Origin: Thermospira aquatica
GTDB taxonomy: Bacteria; Spirochaetota; Brevinematia; Brevinematales; Thermospiraceae
Direction of reading: 5' to 3'
Assembly: GCF_023525255.1 (NCBI RefSeq)
Contig: NZ_CP073355.1
Coordinates: 620,001 to 684,000, forward strand
Length of the DNA: 64,000 nucleotides
Of this stretch, positions 2,121 to 5,559 are shown in pieces. Under the pieces are notes generated by a model. It worked only from the letters and a program-made list of their open reading frames with translations. It was not told where the DNA came from and did no database searches. The translations under genes and the position numbers were made by a program. Each line of letters opens with the position of its first letter. Within the stretch, counting starts at the first letter, position 1.

Positions 2121-3053
2121 TTACCAGCTTTGATACTTTTTGTGGATACCACGAGGGAGAATCATGCGAATAGCCCGTGGATACACAGAAATCTCCAGCG
2201 GAAGGGGCCGAAAAAGCTCCCCATCAAGCTGAGAAAAAACCTCTTCTTTACTTTTCAGGGCAAGAGTAGTACAGCGTATTCCCGACTGCTTGTAGAAGAG
2301 AGTTTCTCCTCCGTAGGGTTTCCAGAGGCTACTGAGCACCTGCCAGACAAGACGTAAAAGATTCCATCGCCCTACCTCAGTATACAGAAAAACATCCAGC
2401 ATACCATCCACAGGAGAAGCTTTGGGGGTTATTTTAAAATAGCGTCCATAACGCTGGATATTTGAGACAAGCACAAAGGACGCTTGGGTCTTTTTCCCAT
2501 CGATTTCCACATCAATAAGTGGAAAGGCATACCGACCAAGAGCCTGGAGCCCTCCAACCACATAGGCAAATTTCCCAAAAATGGTTCGCAGGCCACGCTG
2601 ACGATAGTCCCCCTCCATACGCGAGAGTGTGCGTATCGCATAGGCATCAAAGCCCGCACTGAGCATAAGAAGAAAATACCTGTCGCCCGCTTTTCCTACA
2701 TCAAGGGTCAGGGTATGGGCTTCATGAAGCATCATGGCAATCGAATGCCAGAACACAGGAAGTCTCATCTCTCTCGCAAAAACGTTGCCCGTTCCCATGG
2801 GATAAAGGGCAAGAAGGGCATTTGTCCCCATGATACCATTTAATACCTCATGAAGAGTCCCATCTCCACCAGCCCCAACAAGACACTCCCATCCCGAGAG
2901 GGCTGCTTTTGAGGCAAGTTCTTGCGCATGCCCCGGATACTGTGTGTATGCAATCTCTACCTCGTGTCCGCGCTCTCGTAACCACGCCACACACCGCAGA
3001 AGAGCCTTCTCATGACGTTTGTGAAGGGTATTCGCCACAAAAAAGTATCGCAT
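2121..3053 (-). CDS. Diacylglycerol kinase-fold lipid kinase (DagK/YegS family)
   Basis: The 310-residue protein carries the family nucleotide-binding motif GGDGTLHEVLNG at about 62-73 and the second motif PMGTGNVFAR near 85-94. The fold phosphorylates diacylglycerol or related lipid acceptors with ATP, normally to return diacylglycerol to phosphatidic acid at the inner membrane. The normally acidic residue of GTGNDxAR is Val here, as in a minority of homologues. It is the second such kinase in this operon, separated from the first by the HypF-like gene. Translation is probably coupled to the upstream stop, which lies two bases before the start. The lipid substrate cannot be read from sequence. 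Confidence 0.88.
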   Translation of the reverse strand: MRYFFVANTLHKRHEKALLRCVAWLRERGHEVEIAYTQYPGHAQELASKAALSGWECLVGAGGDGTLHEVLNGIMGTNALLALYPMGTGNVFAREMRLPVFWHSIAMMLHEAHTLTLDVGKAGDRYFLLMLSAGFDAYAIRTLSRMEGDYRQRGLRTIFGKFAYVVGGLQALGRYAFPLIDVEIDGKKTQASFVLVSNIQRYGRYFKITPKASPVDGMLDVFLYTEVGRWNLLRLVWQVLSSLWKPYGGETLFYKQSGIRCTTLALKSKEEVFSQLDGELFRPLPLEISVYPRAIRMILPRGIHKKYQSW

Positions 3054-3055
3054 CC

Positions 3056-4603
3056 TTAAACCTCATGAGAGGATTTCATCTCTTTTTGAGCAAGGATATG
3101 AAGAAGTGCCCCCAGAGCAACGCTACTATCATCGGTTGGAATTCTCTTATGCAAAAGGGGAACAAGCCCAGCTTTTTCCAGATGATACACCATAAGCTGG
3201 AGAAGATGCGGATGGACAAAAAGATGCCCTGAAAGAGCCACCCTCTTTTCGTTATAGGTTTCCGCGTACGCTTTGAGAAGGTTGGTTGTCTCTGCAAAAA
3301 GGGTGTGAATAGCCTGATGGAGAATTTTCTGGGGGGATTTGCCTTTTTTAATGTCGTTAACAATATGAGAGAAGAGTTCGTGTGTATCAAGATAGGTTCT
3401 TCCCTCTATTTGAATGATGTTTATAGGGTAAGTTTCGGCTTCCTCGGCTATAAAAAATTCATCAAATCGCTTGTTTTGCATATCGTATTCTTCTATGAGA
3501 GAACGATAGTCCAGAAGCTCAAAAATAGCCATAAGAATATGGTTCATACTCGAGGATGGGGTAACATTGATGATGCGTTTATTGATAGCATCAATAACAT
3601 AGTGGATTTCACGGTTGTTTCGCAACAGACGAAGAAAAGGGATATCCAGATTCTCAAGATCACCTACAACCTCTCTCAAAATAGCCAGAGTAGCACGCCA
3701 CGGCTCAAGATAGGTTGACGCATGCCCCGGCACAGGGATAGGGCGCCAGCTTGCAAGAATCTGAACTTTTGCCATAGTGCCGTAGACAAGATCGCTTCCC
3801 TCGATGGTTCCGTTGCTGGTGTGATCTGCCTCATCGAAGATAACCCCCAACAAAGGCGTAGAAAAGAAACGATTATCAAAAAGAATATTAGCAAAGTGGG
3901 CTTCTGTATGGGTATACGTACTTTTTTGACCATACTTCGAAAGATAGGTGTGCAAAAGAGATTCATGATAATACTCATGAAAAATAACCCCCGAAGAGAG
4001 AAAATCCTTGCGTTTTCGGTCCATCCATTGGTTTGCCATTTCAAGTTGTGTCCAGTCTACCAGACGCCCGTAGGTTGGAGAAAGATGGATTTCTGTACCC
4101 TGCATCACAGCTACCGCAAGATTACTCTCACTCCCAAAAGCGATAAAGTCGTAAGTGTGTTTCTCATCGATCTCAAGCTCTATCACTGCCGATTGAAATG
4201 GAGTATAACAGACAGGATACCAGTCATCTTTATAAAGGGTATAACAACAGAAAAATTGATCCTTTTGAAACTCACCATCATATCCCTTTTTCCCTGCTGG
4301 TGAGAGAAAATAAAAAGGGGCATCTGCAGGATACTCCGGATAATTGTTAAGCATGGAACGAAAGATGGTTACATTGTTGTCTGAAGGAAGAAGAACAAAA
4401 ACCATTTCTCCCTTCTTTCCCCAGCTTTCATTTCTGGCAAGGGGGAGCCAGAGACAGCCGGGAACATCCTCCTTTGGAGCGAGATTAAAATACGAGAAAA
4501 GTGTCTTCTTATCAAGAAAGAGAAGAATAATCTCCCGATGTGATGGTGTTTTTTCAATCTTGAAAATCCTCCCAGAGGGAAAACGAATCGCGGGAGAAAA
4601 CAT
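3056..4603 (-). CDS. Orphan HypF C-terminal (Kae1-like) domain protein
   Basis: The 515-residue protein matches the last two subdomains of the hydrogenase maturation carbamoyltransferase HypF. It has a conserved sequence around residues 150-180 (IAFGSESNLAV...LSPTYGRLVD), an HxxxH metal pair (HTEAH, about 232 and 236), an Asp in GVIFDE (about 257), the stretch SWRPIPVPG...EPWRATLA (about 285-305), and a final DDSSVALG motif (about 491). The acylphosphatase, zinc-finger and YrdC domains of HypF are absent; the first 140 residues are unrelated to them. No other hyp genes are in the window. The ATG at 4603 is five bases after AGGAGG and is chosen over a GTG at 4609. It sits between two lipid kinases in an operon. 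Function unknown; an ATPase or carbamoyl/acyl-adenylate transferase role is only inferred. Confidence 0.75.
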   Translation of the reverse strand: MFSPAIRFPSGRIFKIEKTPSHREIILLFLDKKTLFSYFNLAPKEDVPGCLWLPLARNESWGKKGEMVFVLLPSDNNVTIFRSMLNNYPEYPADAPFYFLSPAGKKGYDGEFQKDQFFCCYTLYKDDWYPVCYTPFQSAVIELEIDEKHTYDFIAFGSESNLAVAVMQGTEIHLSPTYGRLVDWTQLEMANQWMDRKRKDFLSSGVIFHEYYHESLLHTYLSKYGQKSTYTHTEAHFANILFDNRFFSTPLLGVIFDEADHTSNGTIEGSDLVYGTMAKVQILASWRPIPVPGHASTYLEPWRATLAILREVVGDLENLDIPFLRLLRNNREIHYVIDAINKRIINVTPSSSMNHILMAIFELLDYRSLIEEYDMQNKRFDEFFIAEEAETYPINIIQIEGRTYLDTHELFSHIVNDIKKGKSPQKILHQAIHTLFAETTNLLKAYAETYNEKRVALSGHLFVHPHLLQLMVYHLEKAGLVPLLHKRIPTDDSSVALGALLHILAQKEMKSSHEV

Positions 4604-4612
4604 AAACACCTC

Positions 4613-5506
4613 CTATATAAGCCATGCTTCGTTTTTTCGTACAAAAACAGGGAGAGCTTGAGGAACAAGAGAAATCTCCCATCGAGATAAACAAAAGCTC
4701 TCTCCATCAATGTGTGTGAGCGCTTCTTGAGGAGAAGAAAGAGAAAGTGTCTGGAACCGGCTCATGTGAACAAAGGGAAGACTCGTGTGTTTTCCCTTCA
4801 GGGTGGCGAGGAGATTCTTGATGCGCTGAAAAATTCCTACATTCTCTATCCAGCAAAGATCAAGTTGACCATCATTCAACCGTGCCTCTGGGGCAAGCTG
4901 AACACCTCCCCCGGAACTACGACCGTTTCCGACAGCAAGGAGAAAAATGGTAGTTTTGTTGCCGTTTATACTCATAGGGTGCCCCTGATAAAACAAAAGA
5001 TTTTTAAAAATGGGTGGATAGTAGCGCCACCGACGAGGGATCCATCCCCACTTTCGAAATTCTGAGGCAACAAGAGCATCAAAACCTATCCCCATCATAT
5101 TAAAAAAATAGCGTTCATTGCATTTCCCCACGTCTATCAACGCGGCATCATCATCAAAAAAATTCTCCCATTCCTGCACAGAGAACGAAGAAGAGAATCC
5201 AAAAGCCCTCGCTAGGTCATTCCCTGTTCCCGTAGCAACAAACGAAACTCTCATGTCTGTACGTCCCACCAGGGGTTGACACATTTCATTGAAAGTACCG
5301 TCTCCTCCAATGCAAAGAAACTCTCGATGCCCCATTTTGTAAGCCTTTTCAGCAAGAAGGGTAGCATGATTATTGCCTTCGGTGGCATACACCGCCACCT
5401 CATGAGTTCCTTGCTTCTGATAGAGAAACTCAAGAACACGTGAAAGAATGGCTCTAGCTGCACCTTCTCCTGCCACAGGATTGTAAATGACACAACAACG
5501 AGGCAC
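4613..5506 (-). CDS. Diacylglycerol kinase-fold lipid kinase (DagK/YegS family)
   Basis: The product has the start motif YNPVAGEGAA, the nucleotide-binding motif GGDGTFNEM and the second motif GTGNDLARAFG, all typical of bacterial DagK/YegS lipid kinases, with a usual length of about 297 residues. The GTG at 5506 was chosen because AGGAGG ends six to seven bases before it and the reading begins directly with the family's N-terminal beta strand (VPRCCVIYNP). The longer reading that starts at 5551 would place this ribosome binding site inside the gene. It opens a five-gene operon whose promoter is at 5532-5559. Together with the 2121-3053 gene it gives two divergent paralogues in one transcript. 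Confidence 0.88.
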   Translation of the reverse strand: MPRCCVIYNPVAGEGAARAILSRVLEFLYQKQGTHEVAVYATEGNNHATLLAEKAYKMGHREFLCIGGDGTFNEMCQPLVGRTDMRVSFVATGTGNDLARAFGFSSSFSVQEWENFFDDDAALIDVGKCNERYFFNMMGIGFDALVASEFRKWGWIPRRWRYYPPIFKNLLFYQGHPMSINGNKTTIFLLAVGNGRSSGGGVQLAPEARLNDGQLDLCWIENVGIFQRIKNLLATLKGKHTSLPFVHMSRFQTLSLSSPQEALTHIDGESFCLSRWEISLVPQALPVFVRKNEAWLI

Positions 5507-5531
5507 CTTCCCCTCCTTTTTTACCACTATC

Positions 5532-5559
5532 ATTGTAAAGCATTTTTTCAAAATCGCAA
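5532..5559 (-). promoter_or_regulatory. Promoter of the lipid-kinase operon
   Basis: On the minus strand TTGCGA (5559-5554) and TACAAT (5537-5532) are separated by 16 bp. They lie 26 bases upstream of the GTG start at 5506. Confidence 0.55.

Follow-up and report, generated by a model that had tools for sequence, protein, structure and literature searches.

What does a HypF-type Kae1-like domain do when it stands apart from the other domains of HypF, in a gene run that also encodes two lipid kinases? To our knowledge, the Kae1/HypF fold is known only from adenylate-dependent transfer of carbamoyl-type groups (t6A, HypF and TobZ/NodU) and from degenerate partners such as TsaB. The locus considered here lies in a window of 64,000 nucleotides, positions 620001-684000 of the complete 2.5-Mb genome of Thermospira aquatica (G000), and it encodes a protein, here called HypF-C, whose C-terminal domain is clearly of the HypF type and which has probably been put to another use.

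A tight gene run and its HypF-type protein

Five genes on the minus strand make up the run, beginning with K1, a YegS/DgkB-type lipid kinase (window 4613-5551; DAGK_cat 77 bits, YegS_C 72 bits), and continuing with HypF-C (3056-4603; 515 aa), a second YegS/DgkB-type kinase, K2 (2121-3053; DAGK_cat 81 bits, YegS_C 70 bits), a 298-aa protein with no family match (1204-2100) and, last, a divergent radical SAM protein resembling spore photoproduct lyase (SPL-like; 122-1207). A strong terminator-like hairpin on the same strand (5817-5797) lies between the end of the upstream gene and the run headed by K1. The open reading frame list starts HypF-C at GTG 4609, giving 517 aa, and residue numbers below follow that frame; the likely start is ATG 4603, which has an AGGAGG overlapping the K1 stop codon. 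This overlap, together with a K2 start only 2 nt past the HypF-C stop, makes translational coupling likely. The run extends beyond the stretch that the original prediction covered, and all five of its genes also occur in the sister genome G001, where the 298-aa protein has a 45% identical copy in the equivalent place and the SPL-like protein, which scores 86 bits against a 400-bit cut-off, is likewise found downstream.

The last ~365 residues of HypF-C (3059-4150) are a HypF-type Kae1-like domain, the match being far above chance. The Pfam family HypF_C_2 aligns with residues 153-500 (94 bits, E=1e-26; the HypF_C match is weak), the TIGR00143 hypF profile matches over positions 387-738 of 741 with 84 bits, well below its 466-bit cut-off, and the solved HypF structure 3vth is matched by sequence at E=4e-13. 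In a fold search with the AlphaFold model (pLDDT 80, pTM 0.83), HypF structures ranked well ahead of everything else (E 1e-25, TM 0.78 to 3vth); TsaD/Kae1 came next at E 1e-6 to 1e-7. HypF-C thus shares with HypF the C-terminal Kae1-like domain and the overall fold, and differs in being ~25% identical, in carrying a new N-terminal domain and in lacking the partner domains: no acylphosphatase, Zn-finger or YrdC domain was found in it with Pfam. With TsaD/Kae1 it has the ASKHA fold in common, but that fold match is far weaker than the one to HypF.

The N-terminal domain (4160-4603, ~150 aa) was found in Brevinematales only. It has no match in Pfam or among PDB sequences and none to HypF by local profile comparison, a global-mode profile result having been discarded because that mode forces an alignment. 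Modelled alone, it gave a structure of moderate confidence (pLDDT 74.5) with no PDB fold match. A degenerate YrdC domain had been hinted at by the high fold score of the whole protein; with neither a profile match nor a PDB fold match to the solo model, it is not supported, although a very degenerate form could escape a model of that confidence. The original prediction of an orphan HypF Kae1-like domain joined to an unrelated N-terminal domain is therefore borne out; of HypF and TsaD, the two proteins with which the prediction proposed to compare a modelled structure, the model sides with HypF.

A single-sequence scan of genome contigs with HypF-C gave no matches, nor did a scan of viral contigs. 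Among 57 plasmid matches, the eight listed cover residues 145 onward only, and six of them are annotated as HypF. Annotation pipelines may give the same name to orphans such as this one, a false hint of NiFe hydrogenase in these spirochaetes.

Residues kept and lost

Seven full-length orphans were compared with 28-29 HypF sequences. What the orphans retain is G159, S177, H234, H238, G255, D259, G271, G295, G461, F464, P491 and G500. The two histidines, which form an H-x3-H motif (HTEAH), and D259 are invariant, and every member has an aspartate at 493 or 494: position 494 is occupied by Asp in four members and by Asn in the other three (family f2), and those three have Asp at 493. The original prediction had noted these ligand-like residues, numbering the aspartates D257 and D491 (D259 and D493 in the 517-aa frame), and a set of this kind was seen in all members, the last aspartate being at 493 or 494. 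HypF has the same H-x3-H and Asp ligands and TsaD/Kae1 the same H-x3-H metal site. In the O-carbamoyltransferase GdmN, iron is bound by H133, H137, D156 and D333 (PMC9633730), a pattern equivalent to H234, H238, D259 and D493/494 of the orphans. Judging from these residues, HypF-C probably binds a metal through His-x3-His and two aspartates.

Against this retention stands an equally consistent loss. Each of the seven full-length members has other residues in place of K163, D182, H214, Q233, the G-T-G after D259, W270, G356-R357, D360, E383, H434 and the second G of SGG (462), where the letter is the residue of HypF and the number the position in the orphan frame; none of these members keeps the motifs DGTG (phosphate loop), GRLFD, SGGV (adenosine) or NDGG. 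This lost set includes residues that make the phosphate and adenosine contacts in the ASKHA fold. In their place the orphans have invariants of their own, among them SSSMxH and W288, in the former active-site region; shared replacements of this kind point away from decay and towards a new function.

Since the nucleotide and carbamoyl-adenylate motifs of HypF are lost in every full-length member, carbamoyl transfer of the HypF type is unlikely. The original prediction had suggested, as a possibility, a carbamoyl- or acyl-transfer step, and carbamoyl transfer of the HypF/TobZ kind is not supported: DGTG, GRLFD, SGGV and the invariant K, D and H are gone, and a YrdC domain, which would make the carbamoyl adenylate, is missing. 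HypF-C could nevertheless be envisioned as a true O- or N-carbamoyltransferase drawing carbamoyl-AMP or threonylcarbamoyl-AMP from Sua5 elsewhere in the cell, given that Sua5 is encoded in the genome and that the Kae1-like fold and the metal site are kept. TobZ, GdmN, CmcH and NodU likewise have a Kae1-like domain, which coordinates Fe through His, His, Asp and Asp as in the putative site of the orphan. Yet HypF-C differs from those enzymes in lacking YrdC, any Pfam match to the carbamoyltransferase N- or C-terminal families and the adenylate-binding motifs (the HypF-invariant E and H being replaced along with those named above), and Sua5 and TsaD already make up the t6A system, so that we consider this reading improbable. 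The host genome has separate genes for TsaD, a TsaB-like protein and Sua5, and HypF-C has no TsaD family match; its being a replacement for TsaD was rejected on these grounds.

Distribution, selection and the hydrogenase context

A family-profile search of 393 Spirochaetota genomes, including 13 of Brevinematales, found the full-length orphan in eight of the 13 (G000, G001, G003, G004, G006, G007, G009 and G011, the G011 copy being split over contig ends) and nowhere else. It is missing from G002, which belongs to the host's genus, from family f4 and from the class family f5. Other profile matches cover columns ~141-520 only, nearly all in frames of HypF size (648-926 aa), and the few shorter frames resemble fragments. 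The seven full-length orphans form a single clade (100/100) on a long branch apart from all sampled HypF, and their dN/dS of 0.05-0.12 indicates purifying selection. The loss of domains and motifs could be taken as a sign that HypF-C is a decaying, functionless remnant of HypF; with the reading frame intact in eight genomes, strong purifying selection, a good ribosome-binding site and conserved gene order, we find this scarcely credible. HypF-C is probably a remodelled HypF copy that was given a new job.

Is that job nevertheless in hydrogenase maturation? In the host, the complete genome was searched and no HypD, HypE, HypF or NiFe hydrogenase was found, so the original prediction that no hydrogenase gene lies nearby holds, as regards NiFe enzymes, for the genome at large, where there is no NiFe hydrogenase, HypD or HypE that could depend on the orphan. 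G000 does have HydG with an adjoining HydE-like gene, as for FeFe hydrogenase, an enzyme whose cyanide is not supplied by HypF. Taken together, these points make it very unlikely that HypF-C does the work of HypF in this organism. None of the 13 genomes of the order has HypD, and none of those tested has HypE above the cut-off, while in class family f5 complete HypF and HypD are present in G013-G017 and HypE in the two genomes tested, G013 and G014.

The picture is less uniform among the relatives. NiFe large subunits were found in none of G000, G001, G002 and G007, so that carriers without a NiFe hydrogenase do exist, but large subunits of the NiFe-hydrogenase type are encoded in the f2 genomes and G004, which lack HypD, HypE and HypF, leaving the orphan as the sole HypF relative there. 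One might suppose that it still serves such enzymes. This idea must contend with three carriers (G000, G001 and G007) that have the orphan and no NiFe hydrogenase, on which ground a hydrogenase role was rejected, with the absence of HypE, the partner of HypF, and with the presence of a different protein, a HypC-HydE fusion, in the hydrogenase-bearing genomes; we regard it as very improbable.

The fusion is an observation in its own right. An N-terminal HypC domain (MCYxIPG, GDY) is joined to a HydE-type radical SAM enzyme (C-x3-C-x2-C) that scores 233-254 bits, just below the HydE cut-off of 254.6. It is encoded at L040:11520-12836 (+) in G003, L041:6714-8030 (-) in G006, L086:10171-11469 (+) in G009, L085:2192-3499 (-) in G004, L098:9706-10998 (-) in G042 and L099:8879-10192 (-) in G019. 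In the f2 genomes G003, G006 and G009 it adjoins a group-3-like NiFe hydrogenase (RICGIC and DPCISC read in G003 and G006) and a HycI-type protease. G004 has a second hydrogenase-like type, a 383-aa large subunit of the complex-I-49-kDa/NiFe kind (G004:C20, L100:4762-5913, -) that keeps RICGIC and DPCISCTER; by names it is nearest NuoD/FpoD models, and it is only a candidate hydrogenase. HydG is present in the f2 genomes and G004, in which searches for HypD, HypE and HypF were negative, and the combination of HydG with the fusion suggests a possible new route of NiFe-hydrogenase maturation that borrows FeFe (HydG/HydE) chemistry. Titles and abstracts in the open literature yielded no description of a NiFe maturation route via HypC-HydE.

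The link to a lipid kinase

K1 and K2 are ordinary members of the YegS/DgkB/BmrU lipid kinases, with DAGK_cat and YegS_C domains and intact GGDGT, GTGND/GTGN and DGE motifs, which makes it likely that the run is concerned with a phosphorylated lipid. K1 lies directly upstream of the orphan in G000, G001, G003, G006, G009 and G011 (families f1 and f2), and a K1-type match was absent from all ten genomes without the orphan that were searched (five of the order and five of the class). K2 adjoins the orphan only within the genus (G000 and G001), and f2 relatives of K2 are found elsewhere; what is conserved is thus a pair, K1 and the orphan, and not an orphan flanked by kinases. The original prediction of an operon with two kinases therefore stands as to the presence of both kinases in the run and as to K1, whose place beside the orphan is repeated in six genomes from two families, but "between two kinases" describes G000 and G001 only. 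Nor is the three-gene order general: K1-orphan is kept in f1 and f2, but in f2 the next gene downstream encodes a secreted, outer-membrane-like protein (as read from its sequence; no Pfam match), and in f3 there is no adjacent kinase, K1 being missing from G004 and the K1-type kinase of G007 lying on a different contig from the orphan. The kinase tree did not settle the orthology of the f1 and f2 versions of K1. Overall, the link across eight related genomes is suggestive and is not independent proof, and neighbouring genes could have common regulation without a common pathway.

With these data in hand, the reading that we prefer, and to which we would give an even chance, is that HypF-C is a repurposed HypF Kae1-like domain protein with a predicted metal site, working with a lipid kinase in Brevinematales and not with a carbamoyl adenylate of the HypF type. 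A copy of the C-terminal domain of HypF would have shed its partner domains, acquired a lineage-specific N-terminal domain and, in Brevinematales, been recruited alongside a YegS/DgkB-type kinase into a pathway of lipids or of the envelope. Its nucleotide pocket would have been rebuilt, such that carbamoyl adenylate would be neither made nor used in the manner of HypF, and the protein may be an altered metal-dependent enzyme of group transfer or hydrolysis acting on the lipid substrate or product of the kinase. The bolder form of this proposal, in which the fold with its metal site kept and its ATP/adenylate site dismantled would be a new metal-dependent enzyme on a kinase-phosphorylated lipid, outside tRNA, hydrogenase and antibiotic carbamoylation, we hold tentatively.

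Alternatively, though we think it less likely, HypF-C may be a pseudo-enzyme that regulates the lipid kinase by binding to it, its metal site being structural or a sensor of metal or metabolite. TsaB, a degenerate relative that partners TsaD, is the model for such an arrangement, and YeaZ likewise gives precedent for degenerate ASKHA partners; the loss of the ATP and carbamoyl motifs in all members and the translation-coupled position beside the kinase would fit it too. The conserved metal ligands, and the new invariants where the active site used to be, point instead to a site that works, and two f3 genomes keep the orphan without an adjacent kinase. Between an enzyme and a ligand-sensing partner of the kinase we slightly favour the enzyme. 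If a repurposed protein with its metal site kept, its adenylate site dropped and a link to a lipid kinase is indeed what HypF-C represents, the fold would be reusable for other chemistry or regulation; at the level of titles and abstracts, the literature gave no description of a HypF-type protein paired with a YegS/DgkB-type kinase.

Two further arrangements were seen around the kinases of f2. A kinase paralogous to K1 overlaps a gene for a PlsC-type acyltransferase (L043:8733-10432, +; L101:1819-3512, +), hinting at a role in lipid synthesis for that branch of kinases. The K1-orphan pair is also immediately preceded by three to four CotH-kinase-like genes in tandem (L037:556-8185, +; L036:12544-18342, -), one copy having a Pfam match and the remaining copies being assigned by sequence cluster.
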